Source of the DNA: Thiomicrorhabdus sp. zzn3
GTDB lineage: Bacteria > Pseudomonadota > Gammaproteobacteria > Thiomicrospirales > Thiomicrospiraceae
DNA: 64,000 nt
Assembly (NCBI RefSeq): GCF_029767755.1
Contig: NZ_JARUQS010000002.1
Span: 186,808 to 250,807 of the forward strand
Reading direction: 5' to 3'
Positions 4,826 to 60,423 of the stretch are shown in pieces (the first letter of the stretch is position 1; the number at the start of each line of letters is the position of its first letter). The notes below the pieces were generated by a model. It made no database searches and was not told the origin of the DNA. It saw nothing but the letters and a program-made list of their open reading frames with translations. Position numbers and translations under genes: made by a program.

Positions 4826-5371
4826 CTAGCGCAATTGACGTTCGCTGACTGCATCCCAAATTTGCGTCGGTTTATCCAATTGACCGAGTTCGCCATCAAC
4901 ACAAAACACTTTATCCGCAAACACCTTCTGGATTTCTGCACACGATTTGGCAGGGGGCTGCCCGCTGCGATTGGCACTGGTGGAGACAATCGGCCCGCCA
5001 TAAGCACGACATAGCGCTTGGACAGTTGGATGGGCGGAAACGCGAATCGCAACCGTATCGCGGCCACCGGTAATCCACTCCGGCATGGCATGTTTCAGTG
5101 GCAGTACCCAGGTATAAGGCCCAGGCCAAGTGTTAAGCACCTTCTCTTCCCACGGCGTGCCTTTAAGCTGCACATAAAATTCAATCTGCTCGACAGTCGC
5201 CGCCACTAAAATCACCCCCTTTTCCAGCGGGCGCTGTTTCACGTGAAACACTTTATAAACAGCCGTTTCATTAAACGGATCACACCCCAAACCATACACC
5301 GCTTCAGTGGGATAAGCGATGACCTCACCGGCTTGTAAAAGTTCCACCGCTTGCTGGAGTGCATCTTTCAT
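4826..5371 (-). CDS. tsaC: L-threonylcarbamoyladenylate synthase
   Basis: A member of the Sua5/YrdC/YciO family that makes threonylcarbamoyl-AMP from threonine, bicarbonate and ATP for the t6A37 modification of ANN-decoding tRNAs. Visible motifs are GEVIAYPTEAVYGLGCDP, the K/R-rich KQRPLEKG loop, WPGPYTWVLP, VAIRVSAHP and STSANRSGQPP. At 181 residues from the ATG at 5371 it is the short TsaC form rather than the longer Sua5. The frame is open up to 5434, but that would overlap thrB. A perfect parS-like site (5235-5250) lies in the coding sequence and a CAGGCCTG octamer sits where the ribosome site should be. Confidence 0.93.
   Translation of the reverse strand: MKDALQQAVELLQAGEVIAYPTEAVYGLGCDPFNETAVYKVFHVKQRPLEKGVILVAATVEQIEFYVQLKGTPWEEKVLNTWPGPYTWVLPLKHAMPEWITGGRDTVAIRVSAHPTVQALCRAYGGPIVSTSANRSGQPPAKSCAEIQKVFADKVFCVDGELGQLDKPTQIWDAVSERQLR
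5235..5250. promoter_or_regulatory. parS (ParB-binding) site 1
   Basis: TGTTTCACGTGAAACA is a perfect 16-base palindrome matching the parS consensus TGTTNCACGTGNAACA at every position. It lies inside tsaC. Known parS sites cluster close to the chromosome origin and nucleate ParB spreading. Confidence 0.85.
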
Positions 5372-17317: not shown

Positions 17318-17341
17318 TTACTTTGGAATGTGAGGTCTAAT

Positions 17342-17686
17342 ATGATTTTTATTCGACGCAATGAGGCTGGCGAAATCAGTGAAATCGATTTTACTCCTGG
17401 ACCGAACCTGGAAGAGATCAGTCTGTTTGACCCCCAACTCAAGGAATTTTTGCAGAATAATCCGCACAGTGAAGAATTGATTAAAACCGTACTGGATAAA
17501 CTGGATCTGGATATGGTGCGTGTTATCGAAGATTTGATTGATGTGATGATCGATAAGGAACTGCTGCGTTTTACCGACTTGCCTCAGCCAGTGCAGAATA
17601 AATTGCTCTTTAAAAAGAGCATCCGAAGTTCATTGAACGCAGATCACCACATGATTATTGCCGAAGAAGAGGCCCTTAACCTTTAA
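17342..17686 (+). CDS. Small conserved protein, mis-named TrpB-like in databases
   Basis: A 114-residue protein starting at ATG 17342 with TGAGGT upstream (a GTG at 17330 is in frame but would consume the ribosome site). The core LDLDMVRVIEDLIDVMIDK followed by LLRFTDLPQPVQNKLLFKK matches, from memory, a pseudomonad family annotated as tryptophan synthase subunit beta-like. It has no PLP lysine or TrpB fold features. It probably is a helical protein of unknown function, cotranscribed with the upstream ThDP enzyme (24-base gap). Its stop lies only three bases from the convergent nitroreductase gene. Confidence 0.75.
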   Translation: MIFIRRNEAGEISEIDFTPGPNLEEISLFDPQLKEFLQNNPHSEELIKTVLDKLDLDMVRVIEDLIDVMIDKELLRFTDLPQPVQNKLLFKKSIRSSLNADHHMIIAEEEALNL

Positions 17687-17689
17687 GAC

Positions 17690-18289
17690 TTAATCCAGTT
17701 GGGCAAAAACGGCTTCCACTGGCTTTCGTCGTGCTGGCACCGGATTACAAGGCTCTTTAAGACGTCCAATATACAAAGCCCCAATTAGCTCAATATCAGC
17801 AGAATCAATGGCTAATAACTCATAGGTTCGAGGATCTTGCAGTATGGGCCCGGTACTCCATTGAACCCCTATCTGCTGGCCCCAGGCCATGAGTTGGAAA
17901 TTCTGAATCGCACAACAACAGGCGGCGTAATCTTCCTTGCGTGTCGTCGCCTCTTCAGCCAATACCTGTCCGACCAGAATGATTTCCGGAATACGCGCAA
18001 ACTTATCTAATGCTTTGTGATAAATACACTCATAATCACAGTGATCCGTCGCTTTTTTTTTCGCCCTGTTATGCGCATAAATCTCTGCCAAATGGTTTCG
18101 TGTTTGTCCCTTCAACTGCCAAAAACGCCAAGGTTGGGTTAACTTGTGATTCGGAGCCCATATTGCTGCTTCCAAACACAACAGCAAAGCCTCTTCTGCT
18201 ACTGGATCCGTATCAGCAGAAGCAAATTGATAACAAGTCCGTCTGGATTGAATCAAATCAAGTAATTGAATGGCAGAAATGGCTTGCAT
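17690..18289 (-). CDS. Nitroreductase-family flavoprotein
   Basis: About 199 residues from ATG 18289 (MQAISAIQLLDLIQSRR). The N-terminal RRT motif, WAPNHKLTQPWRFW and the late IGALYIGRLKE segment place it in the FMN-dependent nitroreductase family, close to the short YdjA-type members that reduce nitro or other substrates with NAD(P)H. Several cysteines (YACCCAIQ) cluster in the dimer-core helix, which is unusual. The frame is open to 18373, but that extension shows no domain features. It is transcribed away from the putative origin region, codirectional with leftward replication. Confidence 0.82.
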   Translation of the reverse strand: MQAISAIQLLDLIQSRRTCYQFASADTDPVAEEALLLCLEAAIWAPNHKLTQPWRFWQLKGQTRNHLAEIYAHNRAKKKATDHCDYECIYHKALDKFARIPEIILVGQVLAEEATTRKEDYAACCCAIQNFQLMAWGQQIGVQWSTGPILQDPRTYELLAIDSADIELIGALYIGRLKEPCNPVPARRKPVEAVFAQLD

Positions 18290-18665
18290 AAGGGATAATC
18301 TCGCATATACGCTGGTAAATTGAAACGATAAACTCAATCGCGACATCCATTTGAATGAAGTCCCATTATCCAATAATCGCCGCCCTATTCACAAGGCAAT
18401 AACAAAGTGAATAACTTGTTTAACTTTGTGGATAACTCCTTCATTTTTTATAAATAGAATTTTTATCCACAAAACACACACATTTATCCACTTAACCTAT
18501 CTCATAGGATAACCACAAGCTACTCACAAGCTAATTTTTTGTTTTAATTGAGCAATTTGCGTTTATCAACAAGATTTGTCCTCCTAAGAAGAATAAGAAT
18601 AAAGAATATATAAAAAAATATATATACTTTAATAAGACAAACTTGATTCACAAAGTAGCTGAAAA
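18290..18665. other. Candidate chromosomal replication origin (oriC)
   Basis: A gap between divergent genes with four DnaA-box-like 9-mers within 145 bases: TTATCCACA in reverse at 18427-18435, TTATCCACA at 18463-18471, TTATCCACT at 18484-18492 and TTATCAACA at 18563-18571. The first two match the E. coli consensus exactly. Next to them, 18590-18640 is almost pure A/T with AATATATAAAAAAATATATA, like a DNA unwinding element. G/C strand bias changes here and parS-type sites occur on both sides. dnaA is not adjacent, as in E. coli. The region also must hold the promoters of the two divergent genes. Confidence 0.7.
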
Positions 18666-19598
18666 ATGACCTTAAATGAATTGAAATACATCATTGCAGT
18701 TGCCAAAGAGAGACATTTCCGTAAAGCATCTGAAACTTGCTTTGTTAGCCAACCTACTCTCAGTGTGGCGGTTAAGAAGTTAGAAGAAGAGCTAGGAGTT
18801 GTCTTATTTGAAAGACGTAAACAAGATGTTTTAGTTACTCCCGTTGGTAGAAAAATCATCTCTATTGCTGAAGAGATCGTTGAACGCAGTCAAGACATTA
18901 AGCAGATTGCTAAAGAAGCACAAGGTGACCTATCAACCGAATTAAAAGTTGGAGCCATTCATACCATCGCTCCTTATCTGATTCCAAAGATCATTCCTAT
19001 TTTTCATAAAAATGCACCTAATGTACCGGTCATTATTGAAGAAAACTACACGCATGTCCTGGCAGACAAACTGCAAACCGGCGAACTAGATTTAGTGATT
19101 CTTTCACTGCCTTTTCAAGAACCCAATATTGAAACCTGTTTGCTTTATGAAGAACCTTTTAAATTGATTGTGCCTAAGGAACACCCCTTAAGCCAAACCG
19201 ATACTGAGATTGTGTTACAGAAAATTGAAAACGAAACCATATTATTATTAGGTGCTGGACACTGTTTCAGAGATCAAGTTATTGAAGCCTTTCCTAATCT
19301 AATGCATCTCAATTACCAAAGTGATCGTTTGCAAAAAACCTTTGAAGGCAGTTCACTGGAAACAATTCGATATATGGTTGCCTCAGGGGTAGGTTTATCT
19401 ATTTTTCCATGCAGTTCGCTCTCTGAACGCGATAACGAGCTTTTTACGATAAAAGAGCTATCAGGCCCTACTCCAACTAGAAAAATTGCTCTAGCATGGC
19501 GTAAGAGCTTTCCAAGAGAAGAAATCTTGCAACGTTTCAAGCAATCGGTGATGGAAGCAACAATCCCTTGTACAATCCCTTACAACTCAGATAAATAA
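18666..19598 (+). CDS. oxyR: OxyR-like LysR-family regulator
   Basis: A 310-residue LysR regulator. The winged helix-turn-helix lies at residues 1-60 (HFRKASETCFVSQPTLSVAVKKLEEELG) and the effector domain follows. It aligns with E. coli OxyR: GHCFRDQ at residues 199-205 corresponds to the peroxide-sensing Cys199 segment, and SSLETIRYMVASG to SLETLRNMVAAG. The partner Cys208 is missing: the equivalent position, about 209, is Phe. Sensing would need another cysteine (for example Cys249) or a one-Cys mechanism. The gene is AT-richer than its neighbours and precedes mlaA by 16 bases. Confidence 0.85.
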   Translation: MTLNELKYIIAVAKERHFRKASETCFVSQPTLSVAVKKLEEELGVVLFERRKQDVLVTPVGRKIISIAEEIVERSQDIKQIAKEAQGDLSTELKVGAIHTIAPYLIPKIIPIFHKNAPNVPVIIEENYTHVLADKLQTGELDLVILSLPFQEPNIETCLLYEEPFKLIVPKEHPLSQTDTEIVLQKIENETILLLGAGHCFRDQVIEAFPNLMHLNYQSDRLQKTFEGSSLETIRYMVASGVGLSIFPCSSLSERDNELFTIKELSGPTPTRKIALAWRKSFPREEILQRFKQSVMEATIPCTIPYNSDK

Positions 19599-19614: not shown

Positions 19615-20406
19615 ATGAAAAGTACATACAGATCTAATTTCTTTGCAGTCATCACGGTTTTAAGTATGAATGTGCTTGTTTCATCGGCCATGGCGTCATG
19701 GGAAGACGATTTAGCTCCGCCTGCTAAAAAAACGGATTCCTCTGCGATGGTAATGATGAACCCACAGGATCCCTATGAGTCTTACAATCGTAAAATGTTT
19801 ACTTTTAACATGGCCTTTCATGATGCGATTGGCGAACCGGTTGCTAAGGCCTATCTGAATTACGTACCTCAGCCGGCTCAGACCGGCATACAGAACTTTT
19901 TTTCCAATTTAGGGATGCCTCTGAATGTGATGAACAGTTTTCTTCAGGGCAAAGGCCAGGAAGGTTTTGAAGGGATCATGCGTTTTACCCTTAACTCTAC
20001 ATTTGGCCTGTTTGGTTTATTGGATATTGCAACTCCAGCAGGCTTGGAGCTCAAAAAAGAAGATTTTGGACAAACTCTGGCTGTTTGGGGTGTTTGGGAT
20101 GAAGCGTCGTTTGTAATGCTGCCGTTTATCGGTCCTTATACCACGCGCAGCTTATTTGGTTGGGGAGTCGATTCCTACTCAGATCTGCTTTATCAAATGG
20201 TCGATGGAGATGATGTGAATCGCCCTGCTCTTGCTTTTGGCGATGCCTTTGTCAGTTACACTAAAGCGACCCCGTTAATTGATGAACTTCGCCAACAACC
20301 GGACCCCTATATTTTTATGCGTGAAAGTTATTTGCAATATCGTACCAATGCGATCTATGACGGCCATCCGCCGCAACCTAAATTGGACGATTTCGATTTT
20401 GAATAA
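19615..20406 (+). CDS. mlaA: MlaA/VacJ-family outer-membrane lipid-asymmetry protein
   Basis: A 263-residue MlaA homologue, which in the Mla pathway removes misplaced phospholipids from the outer leaflet of the outer membrane. Family landmarks are DPYESYNRKMFTFN, NFFSNLGMPLNVMNSFLQGK, FGLFGLLDIATPAGL, EDFGQTLAVWGV and FIGPYTTRSLFG. Typical MlaA proteins are lipoproteins, but here the signal peptide (MNVLVSSAMASWEDD) has no lipobox cysteine and looks like ordinary signal-peptidase-I cleavage. It is probably cotranscribed with oxyR. The rest of the mla operon is not in the window. Confidence 0.9.
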   Translation: MKSTYRSNFFAVITVLSMNVLVSSAMASWEDDLAPPAKKTDSSAMVMMNPQDPYESYNRKMFTFNMAFHDAIGEPVAKAYLNYVPQPAQTGIQNFFSNLGMPLNVMNSFLQGKGQEGFEGIMRFTLNSTFGLFGLLDIATPAGLELKKEDFGQTLAVWGVWDEASFVMLPFIGPYTTRSLFGWGVDSYSDLLYQMVDGDDVNRPALAFGDAFVSYTKATPLIDELRQQPDPYIFMRESYLQYRTNAIYDGHPPQPKLDDFDFE

Positions 20407-35536: not shown

Positions 35537-35552
35537 GGTTTCACGTGAAACA
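35537..35552. promoter_or_regulatory. parS-like site 2 (intergenic)
   Basis: GGTTTCACGTGAAACA matches the parS consensus at 15 of 16 positions (first base G). It contains a perfect 14-base palindrome, and it is the only intergenic copy. Confidence 0.8.
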
Positions 35553-38411: not shown

Positions 38412-40490
38412 ATGACTCAAACAGCGCAAAAAACGACTTTAAAAAATCCTCTATTAGACCTAACAGGTCTGCCTAAATTTGATTTGTTTCACGTGGAACA
38501 TATTGAAGCAGCGGTTGATGCGGTATTGGAGGAGAGTCGTGCAGAGATAAAGCGCTTGTCTGAAGGTGAGTTTGAACCTAACTGGGAAAATTTTATTGAG
38601 CCATTGGAGAAAATCGATAATACATTAGAACGTGTCTGGGGGCCGATAGGTCATTTGGATTCGGTTAAAAACAGTGACGAATGGCATGAAGCCTATACCG
38701 CCTGCTTACAAAAGATCACCGCTTATAGTACGGAAGTCGGGCAAAATGCAGGCCTGTTCAAAAAGTTTAAAACCATTTCAGAGAGCCCTGATTTTCAAGG
38801 TTATAGCCTGGCGCAGAAAAAAGTGATTGAAAACGCGCTTCGTAACTTCAAGCTATCCGGAATTGATCTGCCTGCCGAACAGCAAAAACAATATCAGCAG
38901 GTCAAGCAGCGTCTTTCTCAACTGAGCAGTCAATTTGGTAACAATGTCCTGAAGTCGACCCAGGCCTGGTCAAAACACGTTACCGATGAGCAACAATTAG
39001 CCGGCCTGCCCGAAAGTGCGCTCGGGTTGTTGCAGCAACTGGCGCAGCAGAAAAACTTGCAAGGTTGGTTGGTCACTTTGGATTTTCCATCCTATATTGC
39101 CGTAATGACCCATGCAGATGATCGTGAGTTACGCAGTGAAGTTTACCGAGCGTTTGGTACGCGTGCTTCCGATCAGGCCCATAATACCGATTACGACAAC
39201 TCCGAAATTATCGAACAGATCCGTCAACTGCGTCATCAGTTGGCGAATCTGCTCGGGTTTAAACAGTATTCCGACTATTCTCTGGCGACTAAAATGGCGG
39301 AAAATGCGGATCAGGTACTCGGTTTTTTGCGTGATTTAGCGGTTAAATCCAAGCCTCAAGCGGAACAGGAATTAAACACCTTAAAAGCGTTTGCAGCGGA
39401 ACATTTAGGGATTGAGGATCTGCAACCTTGGGATGTCGCCTATGCTTCCGAAAAGCTCAAAAACCAAACGTTGTCGCTCTCACAAGAGACGCTCCGCCCC
39501 TACTTTCCAATTGATAAGGTTTTAACAGGCCTGTTCGAAATCACCGAAACACTGTTTGGCATTCGTTTGCGTGAAAAACCGACGGGCGAGAATGGCGTGC
39601 CGGTATGGCATGCAGACGTGCGGTTTTTCGAGCTGGTGGATGAAGCCGATGACGTGATCGGTCAATTTTATCTTGATCTGTATGCGCGTGAAAACAAACG
39701 CGGCGGTGCCTGGATGGATTCAGCCATCAGTCGTTGGAAACACAGCGGCGGCGATTTGCAAAAACCGGTCGCCTATCTGGTGTGCAACTTCACCCCTCCG
39801 GTCGGCGATAAACCGGCCTGTCTGACGCATGATGAAGTGACCACCTTGTTCCATGAATACGGCCACGGTATTCACCATCTGTTTACTAAGATGGAACATC
39901 TGGATATTTCCGGCATCAGCGGTGTGCCGTGGGATGCGGTGGAATTGCCATCGCAATTTATGGAAAACTTCTGTTGGGAACGCGAGGGCTTGGATTGCAT
40001 TTCCGGACACATCGACACAGATGAGCCTTTGCCGGACGATCTATTTGAATCGCTCAAAGCCAGTCGCCATTTCCAGTCCGCGATGATGATGGTGCGCCAA
40101 CTGGAGTTCGGCTTAATGGATTTTGAACTGCACAGTTTCTATGATCCTCAAGAAGCCGAGGATATTCTGGAGTTGGCGAAACGCATTCGCAAAGAAGTGG
40201 CGGTGGTACAACCGCCAGAATATACGCGTATGCTGCACAGCTTTAGCCATATCTTTGCCGGCGGTTATGCGGCGGGTTACTTCAGTTATAAATGGGCAGA
40301 GGTGCTGTCAGCCGATGCCTTCAGCCTGTTTGAAGAGACGGGCATTTTGAACCCTGAGACCGGTGCCAAGTTTAGAAACACCATTCTTGCGGCAGGGGGC
40401 TCTATGGATCCAATGGTGCTGTTTAAGGCATTCAGAGGACGTGAGCCACAGATTGATGCTCTACTGCGTCACACTGGCATTGCAGCGTAA
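38412..40490 (+). CDS. prlC: Oligopeptidase A
   Basis: A 692-residue M3-family zinc peptidase that degrades oligopeptides, including cleaved signal peptides, in the cytoplasm. The zinc site HEYGHGIHH lies near residue 480, with the later glutamate downstream (HIDTDE/QFMENF region). The N-terminus NPLLDLTGLPKFDLFHVEHIEAAV is typical of OpdA. ATG 38412 follows GGTAAG. Three CAGGCCTG octamers (38749, 38961, 39526) and a perfect parS site (38485-38500, encoding LFHVEH) lie in the coding sequence, showing both elements tolerate protein-coding context. Confidence 0.96.
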   Translation: MTQTAQKTTLKNPLLDLTGLPKFDLFHVEHIEAAVDAVLEESRAEIKRLSEGEFEPNWENFIEPLEKIDNTLERVWGPIGHLDSVKNSDEWHEAYTACLQKITAYSTEVGQNAGLFKKFKTISESPDFQGYSLAQKKVIENALRNFKLSGIDLPAEQQKQYQQVKQRLSQLSSQFGNNVLKSTQAWSKHVTDEQQLAGLPESALGLLQQLAQQKNLQGWLVTLDFPSYIAVMTHADDRELRSEVYRAFGTRASDQAHNTDYDNSEIIEQIRQLRHQLANLLGFKQYSDYSLATKMAENADQVLGFLRDLAVKSKPQAEQELNTLKAFAAEHLGIEDLQPWDVAYASEKLKNQTLSLSQETLRPYFPIDKVLTGLFEITETLFGIRLREKPTGENGVPVWHADVRFFELVDEADDVIGQFYLDLYARENKRGGAWMDSAISRWKHSGGDLQKPVAYLVCNFTPPVGDKPACLTHDEVTTLFHEYGHGIHHLFTKMEHLDISGISGVPWDAVELPSQFMENFCWEREGLDCISGHIDTDEPLPDDLFESLKASRHFQSAMMMVRQLEFGLMDFELHSFYDPQEAEDILELAKRIRKEVAVVQPPEYTRMLHSFSHIFAGGYAAGYFSYKWAEVLSADAFSLFEETGILNPETGAKFRNTILAAGGSMDPMVLFKAFRGREPQIDALLRHTGIAA
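38485..38500. promoter_or_regulatory. parS site 3 (inside prlC)
   Basis: TGTTTCACGTGGAACA matches TGTTNCACGTGNAACA at all positions. It lies 73 bases into prlC and 2.9 kb from site 2. Confidence 0.85.
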
Positions 40491-54519: not shown

Positions 54520-55494
54520 CTACTGAATCACTCGGTGTTGGATCAACTGTGGCAGTGCCGCTTGTTGAGTGCTCACTTCGACCAGTGGAATGTGCAGGGT
54601 TTGCAAGCGTTTTTGCAAAGCTTGCCAACGACTGACATAGTTGTGTCGGTAGCGACTGCGAATGGTTTTTTGTGCGCTGTTAAGCGGCAGAATGCGGTCG
54701 CTGAACCAGCCGCTGGTAAAGGAGAGCCACCCCTGTTGCGGCAGGTTTTTCTCCAACGGATCGTAAATGTGAATGGCGGTGATTTCCGCCTGTTTGCGCA
54801 GATTGCGCAACTGATCCAGGGTGGCGTCATTGAAGTTGAGCAGATCACCGATCAGGAAAATCTTGCTCCCCGGACGCAATTGACGGCTTAATTGTTGGCA
54901 GGCCTGTTGCCACGGTTCCGGTGTGGTGGTGCCGGGCTGTTTGAGCTGGTGTTGCAGATGTAGAGCTTGATGAAACCATTGCAGCAGCGTGCGTGATTGG
55001 CGTTTGGGCGCTATCCAGGCCTGTTGAGTTTGATTAAATGCCATGCCGCCGACTTGATCGTTTTGATGCAGCGCAATCCAGCCGAGCAGGGCGGCCACAT
55101 TCAGCGCTTGCGCCGCCTTAAGCTGTACGCGGCTGCCGAAAAACAGCGCGGGCGACTGTTCAGTCACCAACAACACCGGCTTTTCATGCTCTTCACTGAA
55201 GACCTTGGTATGCACTTTTTGCGTGCGCGCGCTGACGCGCCAGTCGATATGGCGAATGTCGTCACCGGGCTGGTATTGGCGTACTTCGCTGAAAATCATA
55301 CCGCTGCCTTTTCGCAGACTGGGATGACCGCCACTGGTTTGTTCCAGCACTTTTTGCTGGCTGTTAAGCTTATATTGCTTCACGTGAAACCTTAAAGCCA
55401 CTAAGTCGTCGAGCGAACTGTATAAAGAAGCCAAAGCTTCCTCAGAAGAAAGCGCTTTGGGCTGAATCTGCTCTTTGTGGTTTTGCTGGCTCAT
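54520..55494 (-). CDS. DUF58 protein
   Basis: A 324-residue cytoplasmic protein of the DUF58 family with the conserved core GMIFSEVRQYQPGDDIRHIDWRVSART near residue 65 and KVFSEEHEKPVLLVTEQS. DUF58 proteins have a degenerate VWA-like fold and partner with MoxR ATPases. The gene follows moxR by 20 bases. A parS-like variant (55376-55391) lies near its 5' end and two CAGGCCTG octamers (54899 and 55016) lie in its sequence. Confidence 0.9.
   Translation of the reverse strand: MSQQNHKEQIQPKALSSEEALASLYSSLDDLVALRFHVKQYKLNSQQKVLEQTSGGHPSLRKGSGMIFSEVRQYQPGDDIRHIDWRVSARTQKVHTKVFSEEHEKPVLLVTEQSPALFFGSRVQLKAAQALNVAALLGWIALHQNDQVGGMAFNQTQQAWIAPKRQSRTLLQWFHQALHLQHQLKQPGTTTPEPWQQACQQLSRQLRPGSKIFLIGDLLNFNDATLDQLRNLRKQAEITAIHIYDPLEKNLPQQGWLSFTSGWFSDRILPLNSAQKTIRSRYRHNYVSRWQALQKRLQTLHIPLVEVSTQQAALPQLIQHRVIQ
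55376..55391. promoter_or_regulatory. parS-like site 4 (inside DUF58 gene)
   Basis: TGCTTCACGTGAAACC matches the parS consensus at 14 of 16 positions, with a central 12-base palindrome TTCACGTGAA. It is identical to site 5 at 60408. Confidence 0.65.
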
Positions 55495-59425: not shown

Positions 59426-60415
59426 TTAAGCCGGCTTATTGGCGACCATGACCGCACGCAATGGCGCAGGATAACCCTCGATGGTTTTATTGGGATCTTC
59501 CGGATCCAGGAAATCGGGTAGAGAGTTCCACTGCATCCAGTCGGTCGGTCGCTGTTCTTCGGTTGAGGTTTGATTAAGATCGACACAGCGTACACGGTTA
59601 AACCCGCAACGCTCCATCCAGCGTTGAAGTTCCTCTACCGAAGGTAAAAACCAGACGTTACGCATCTGCGCATAGCGGTCTTCGGGCACCAACAGCTGGC
59701 CGTAAGTTTCCGGTACCACTAGGGTTTCCAAAACGAGCTCTCCACCGGGTTTGAGCTGATTTTTCAGATCCAGGATATGATCGATGGGTGAGCGGCGGTG
59801 GTAGAGCACGCCCATGGAGAACACGGTGTCAAAGACTCCGCCTTTAGCGGAAACCGGGAGTTGTTCTAACGTCAGTGGCAGGAAATAGGCTGGAACCGAT
59901 TCGCCGATAAAATGCTTAAGGGCTAAGAATTGGCTCATAAACAGCAGGCTGGGATCGACTCCCACCGCCAATTTGACCTTTTCGCCGGCCATGCGCCACA
60001 GGTGATAGCCGCTACCGCAGCCGATATCAAGCACGCGTTTGCCTTCCAGTGGACTCAGGTGGGGACGGACTCGATCCCATTTCCAATCCGAACGCCATTC
60101 AGTTTCGATATGGATGCCGTGGATGTTGAACGGGCCCTTACGCCACGGCATTAAGATGCGCAAGGCACTTTCCAGCTGGGCTTTGTGGCCAGCATCCAAT
60201 GTGTCTTGGCCGGCACGTACGACTGATTCATTGAGTTCAAACGGCTGATCGCTTGGAAAGTCATAGAGGATTTCCAGAGCCGCCAGCCAACGGGGCAGGT
60301 TTCCATTGCCTTGCGGGTGAAGTGCCGTGTCAATCAGAGCCGGAAGTTGCTGTTTCCACTCCTCAAAACGAGAGTCACCGAGTTTTTCCCAAAATGAATC
60401 GTAATGGTGCTTCAC
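59426..60415 (-). CDS. cmoB: tRNA U34 carboxymethyltransferase
   Basis: A 329-residue methyltransferase that transfers the carboxymethyl group of carboxy-SAM to 5-hydroxyuridine at tRNA position 34, making cmo5U. The SAM pocket is VLDIGCGSGYHLWRM near residue 120, with FSMGVLYHRRSPIDH downstream, typical of CmoB. The start is a GTG at 60415 with AGCAGG before it; this codon lies inside a parS-like palindrome. cmoA is encoded upstream on the same strand, separated by a long palindrome. Confidence 0.95.
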   Translation of the reverse strand: MKHHYDSFWEKLGDSRFEEWKQQLPALIDTALHPQGNGNLPRWLAALEILYDFPSDQPFELNESVVRAGQDTLDAGHKAQLESALRILMPWRKGPFNIHGIHIETEWRSDWKWDRVRPHLSPLEGKRVLDIGCGSGYHLWRMAGEKVKLAVGVDPSLLFMSQFLALKHFIGESVPAYFLPLTLEQLPVSAKGGVFDTVFSMGVLYHRRSPIDHILDLKNQLKPGGELVLETLVVPETYGQLLVPEDRYAQMRNVWFLPSVEELQRWMERCGFNRVRCVDLNQTSTEEQRPTDWMQWNSLPDFLDPEDPNKTIEGYPAPLRAVMVANKPA

Positions 60416-60423
60416 GTGAAACC
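60408..60423. promoter_or_regulatory. parS-like site 5 (cmoB start codon)
   Basis: TGCTTCACGTGAAACC matches parS at 14 of 16 positions and is identical to site 4. The GTG of cmoB (60415-60413) lies within it. Confidence 0.65.

Follow-up and report, generated by a model that had tools for sequence, protein, structure and literature searches.

A probable chromosomal replication origin of Thiomicrorhabdus sp. zzn3 and its family, located away from dnaA beside an OxyR-like gene

Results

The intergenic gap and its neighbours

The 64-kb stretch of DNA analysed here (the window) corresponds to C2:186808-250807 of Thiomicrorhabdus sp. zzn3, whose 2.37-Mb genome is distributed over six contigs. It contains a 376-bp intergenic gap (18290..18665, no strand assigned) between two divergent genes: a nitroreductase-like gene on the minus strand (17690..18289, with its start at 18289) and, on the plus strand, a gene for an OxyR-like LysR-family regulator (18666..19598). 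The orthologous gap is kept across the family, where the regulator also has orthologues, and the left-hand gene is swapped in some relatives. The best NCBIfam match of the regulator is OxyR, at 218.9 bits against a cut-off of 329. The dnaA gene is located outside the window, with its domain at C2:176474, 10.3 kb past the left end and approximately 29 kb from the boxes described below. Further to the left, parB (at C2:151095) and mnmG both lie within C2:151-155 kb, mnmG being 50 kb from the candidate.

Two perfect DnaA boxes of sequence TTATCCACA were found in the gap, box A (18427..18435, minus strand) and box B (18463..18471, plus strand), which are divergent and 36 bp apart. Two other boxes, both on the plus strand, show one mismatch: box C (TTATCCACT, 18484..18492), 21 bp outside box B, and box D (TTATCAACA, 18563..18571), which adjoins an A/T tract in an R1-like position. 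A weak box with two mismatches (TTATTCACT, 18406..18414, minus strand) lies 21 bp outside box A, and an IHF-like site (TAATTTTTTGTTT, 18532..18544, plus strand) differs from YAANNNNTTGATW at one position. The A+T-rich tract (18585..18644, plus strand) starts with AAGAAGAATAAGAATAA, followed by TATATAAAAAAATATATATAC; 52 of its 60 bases are A/T (8 G/C), so that it ranks in the top three of the window by A/T content. Given its conserved sequence and its position beside box D, we propose that this tract would act as the DNA unwinding element. Boxes A to D and the tract together span 218 bp. The sequence-only reading had described divergent genes, no adjacent dnaA, and two perfect boxes, two one-mismatch boxes and an A/T stretch within 220 bases, all of which were recovered.

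Over the whole window, one-mismatch DnaA boxes occur at chance level (16 observed, 13.75 expected), and the signal therefore resides in their clustering. In 800 kb of the strain's own genome, the top cluster score of 8 was reached only by the gap and by the dnaA promoter, and in 5000 simulations of 377-bp sequences with the dinucleotide composition of the region it was never attained, the highest score being 4; the cluster in the gap is thus beyond chance. Promoter and terminator scans of the gap gave results at chance level, and strict DnaA-trio runs ([T/A]A[G/A]) in the A/T tract were not longer than in shuffled sequences in nearly all genomes. The gap contains no GATC (0 in 377 bp), compared with 5.0 per kb genome-wide, and SeqA was not found in the genome, which implies that control of the E. 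coli type by Dam/SeqA is not operating here.

Five parS-type sites, all on the plus strand, are present in the window: a perfect TGTTTCACGTGAAACA at 5235..5250, two sites with one mismatch (35537..35552 and 38485..38500) and two with two mismatches (55376..55391 and 60408..60423). Only 0.3 sites are expected in the window at up to three mismatches. All ten sites of the genome with at most two mismatches are located inside C2:117910-327954 and lie to the left and right of the candidate, in agreement with the earlier claim that such sites flank the region. The presence of parS near oriC is the rule (PMC7022226).

Conservation across the family

The relatives compared include, within the genus, T. 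chilensis, T. cannonii and T. arctica, and related loci with recognisable versions of the gap architecture are also present in Thiomicrospira and Hydrogenovibrio. In the aligned upstream regions, boxes A and B form a divergent pair, TGTGGATAA-27 bp-TTATCCACA, whose 36-bp register is shared by 25 of 29 sequences, comprising all 24 complete sequences of the genus and one from another genus. Box A is perfect in all 24 genus genomes with a complete gap, and box B reads TTATCCCCA in six of the sequences. The pair is flanked on either side by weaker boxes at a distance of 21 bp, with TTAnnCAC at box C in most relatives and, at the site of the weak box 18406..18414, one-mismatch boxes in several of them. 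The columns of the IHF-like site hold a perfect or one-mismatch site in many relatives (e.g. TAACTATTTGATA); YAANNNNTTGATW itself is perfect in several species and precedes the TTATCnACA box by approximately 31 bp. Box D retains TTATCnAC in most of the genus, and in the aligned relatives the TTATCnACA box is followed by sequence rich in AAGAATAA and TATATA. The whole arrangement, comprising the A/B pair in fixed register, a third box, the IHF-like site, the TTATCnACA box and the A/T tract, is conserved in approximately 25 species, as would be expected of an oriC.

The cluster is absent beside the OxyR-like genes of Sedimenticola, Chromatiaceae, Kangiellaceae and others, indicating that it is a trait of the family and not of the OxyR-like gene. 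The sequence-only reading considered an oxyR-like gene beside an origin to be unusual. The gene is indeed OxyR-like, with a score under the curated cut-off, but its position is no oddity of a single genome, because the arrangement holds across the family.

At the locus of Hydrogenovibrio sp. SC-1 (L194), no nitroreductase-like gene is present, and the cluster lies directly next to the gene that is the counterpart of window positions 17330-17686. As judged from this sequence, the candidate origin has stayed put there while its left neighbour changed.

GC skew in 14 genomes

The skew of the strain's own genome was computed over 300 kb of contiguous C2 sequence and over tiles covering approximately one quarter of contig C1, sampling being confined to these two of the six contigs. 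The cumulative minimum was found at C2:206712, position 19905 of the window, approximately 1.3 kb from the candidate; it lies 1.2 kb beyond the start of the OxyR-like gene, just past its end. The turning point is broad, the curve rising no more than 60 counts above its minimum between window positions 11.9 and 26.3 kb, and skew is an indirect, evolutionary average whose resolution is kilobases at best. The skew remains clearly negative to the left and right of dnaA, and the cumulative curve descends steadily through this gene. The opposite switch, from positive to negative, was observed in the C1 tiles near 1.0 Mb, as expected of a terminus.

Thirteen further genomes were analysed, ten of the same genus (G003, G008, G014, G018, G019, G021, G023, G024, G025 and G030) and three of other genera (G033, G035 and G036). 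In each of them the minimum is separated from the start of the orthologous OxyR-like gene by 0-11 kb, and from dnaA by 32-85 kb; the offset is 10.7 kb in G008, and the stretch used for G035 is short. When the strain itself is included, all 14 family genomes have their minimum 0-11 kb from the orthologous gap (within 1.5 kb in the strain's own genome) and 30-85 kb from dnaA. The mean skew of the 13 genomes forms a V that bottoms out at +1.2 kb relative to the OxyR-like start, whereas the mean centred on dnaA simply descends. The outgroup genome G055, included to provide a control with a dnaA-adjacent origin, had a skew too weak and noisy to be used.

The distance between the OxyR-like gene and dnaA varies from 28 to 82 kb across the family. 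The OxyR-like gene is inverted relative to dnaA in G018, G024 and G033 and lies on the other side of dnaA in G035, and the skew minimum tracks it through every one of these flips. As such rearrangements separate an origin in the gap from an origin at dnaA, we regard the skew across genomes as the strongest evidence obtained. The sequence-only reading had named a minimum elsewhere, for example beside dnaA, as the outcome that would count against it; the minimum at 19905 and its recurrence in 13 genomes are the opposite outcome.

Discussion

We conclude, with a probability of roughly 93%, that the gap 18290-18665 is the chromosomal replication origin (oriC) of Thiomicrorhabdus sp. zzn3 and of its family. 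The observations behind this conclusion are the sites themselves, their conserved sequence and spacing, the skew switch over 14 genomes and the parS cluster, and from these we infer DnaA binding, unwinding and the start of replication at the gap. The suggestion that the region is an oriC is thus borne out by the skew minimum, the 13 further genomes and the conserved block. It is a DnaA-type oriC of the ordinary kind in an unusual, family-wide location away from dnaA; it adjoins neither dnaA nor dnaN, and no skew change is seen at dnaA, 29 kb off.

In the mechanism we propose, DnaA would occupy the high-affinity divergent pair A/B and then spread onto the weaker boxes, while IHF or a similar bending protein would bend the DNA separating the box array from box D. 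From box D, ATP-DnaA could then invade and open the adjoining A/T tract 18585-18644, after which DnaB would be loaded and replication would proceed in both directions. ParB bound at the surrounding parS sites would segregate the copies.

Other functions of the cluster deserve consideration. The boxes could belong to a DnaA-controlled promoter that serves one or both of the flanking genes, with the origin elsewhere: a gap between divergent genes must contain the promoter of the OxyR-like gene, and the dnaA promoter likewise carries DnaA boxes. This alternative, also raised by the sequence-only reading, is a poor fit: an IHF-like site and an unwinding tract are part of the conserved block, which also sits at the skew minimum. 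A plain promoter would leave these features, the minimum in 14 genomes and the parS cluster unexplained; moreover, the cluster persists where the left-hand gene differs (L194), and the promoter scan of the gap was at chance level. We consider it very improbable. The cluster could also serve to titrate or recycle DnaA in the vicinity of the true origin, a hypothesis that draws on the datA- and DARS-like sites of E. coli, which combine DnaA boxes with IHF sites. The conserved A/T tract beside box D, and a skew minimum that is tracked closely through rearrangements, are features of an origin instead, and no better origin candidate was found in the sampled sequence of the strain; the chance that the gap is such a site appears minimal.

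The cluster upstream of dnaA equals that of the gap by box-count score and is also conserved, and it could therefore be proposed as the oriC, with the OxyR-side cluster as an accessory. In the strain and in 13 family genomes, this cluster comprises two to four boxes on one strand, approximately 24-25 and 30 bp apart and mostly ending in TTATTCACAGGTATACT. The strain's own array (C2:175888-175951) leads straight into GGTATACT, a -10-like element that is conserved in nearly all family genomes. Such same-strand boxes in steps of approximately 25 and 30 bp speak against an origin and, as a sequence layout, suggest a promoter with DnaA boxes upstream, that is, dnaA autoregulation. Furthermore, none of the 14 family genomes shows a change of skew sign at dnaA. 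On the basis of the skew and of this promoter-like layout, we rejected the dnaA-upstream cluster as origin and regard the corresponding hypothesis as extremely improbable.

A pair of perfect boxes at C1:571836/571850 was likewise rejected as an origin, since no negative-to-positive skew change occurs anywhere near it in the sampled tiles. These boxes form an inverted repeat, TTATCCACA-5-TGTGGATAA (C1:571836-571858, L030:11836-11858), between a kinase-like gene and a gene for an FNR-like regulator, and the site is a candidate DnaA-controlled promoter.

The gap can be compared with several known origins. The oriC of E. coli, between gidA/mnmG and mioC, is also DnaA-type, away from dnaA and built on TTATCCACA boxes. 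In its left half, a DnaA box flanks the A/T tract and an IHF site lies between that box and the remaining array, giving the same order of unwinding tract, box, IHF site and box array as in the gap (PMC4451416). In contrast to E. coli, the gap has other flanking genes, with mnmG 50 kb away, and its boxes are arranged differently, including a fixed divergent pair; devoid of GATC and in a genome without SeqA, it is not a Dam/SeqA-controlled oriC of the E. coli type. The Pseudomonas-type oriC sits beside dnaA, whereas in the present family the cluster upstream of dnaA resembles a promoter and the candidate origin is 28-82 kb away. Both contain few boxes and use TTATCCACA as the high-affinity box (PMC4285127), and both have parS sites around the origin (PMC7022226). 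Origins far from dnaA are recorded in DoriC, including that of Synechococcus lividus PCC 6715, which resembles the gap in having a DnaA-box cluster distant from dnaA but belongs to an unrelated lineage with the box sequence TTTTCCACA (PMC6323995).

No description of this origin was found among the papers searched for oriC in Thiomicrospira, Hydrogenovibrio and Thiomicrorhabdus: none of those papers joined Hydrogenovibrio with oriC, and a match for Thiomicrospira crunogena and oriC concerned another organism. An earlier computed prediction of the site may exist in DoriC for some genome of the family. The family, which includes Thiomicrorhabdus and Thiomicrospira, consists of sulfur-oxidising bacteria. 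Many of its assemblies are numbered from dnaA, with the gene at approximately position 450 of the contig in the closed genomes examined, and one Hydrogenovibrio genome has been described as oriented to dnaA (PMC6501319). With such numbering, gene dosage, replichores and strand bias would be placed 30-80 kb off, and the conserved arrangement allows the origin to be located in these genomes. The family also provides a natural series of spacings between origin and dnaA, from 28 to 82 kb and in both orientations, allowing the effect of this distance to be compared. Finally, the register fixed in approximately 25 species offers a compact, SeqA-free oriC for probing the spacings that DnaA needs.

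With regard to the OxyR-like protein, the first redox cysteine is kept in the strain and in its family orthologues (GHCFRDQ), and the position of the resolving cysteine of E. coli OxyR is occupied by F, Y or another residue. An out-of-family OxyR-like copy (G057) retains the resolving cysteine. From these residues, the family proteins might not sense peroxide via the classical disulfide. IciA binds the 13-mers of E. coli (PMC4285127). In a conceivable but unlikely scenario, the family-specific origin would have become tied to its neighbour: the OxyR-like protein would recognise its own promoter within the unwinding tract and, similarly to IciA, make initiation responsive to the redox state. 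One or more in-frame stops were reported in the matched OxyR-like frame at each of four loci, L051 (G008), L056 (G026), L065 (G001) and L066 (G006), and may be due to assembly errors or to the regular stop codon falling within the matched span.
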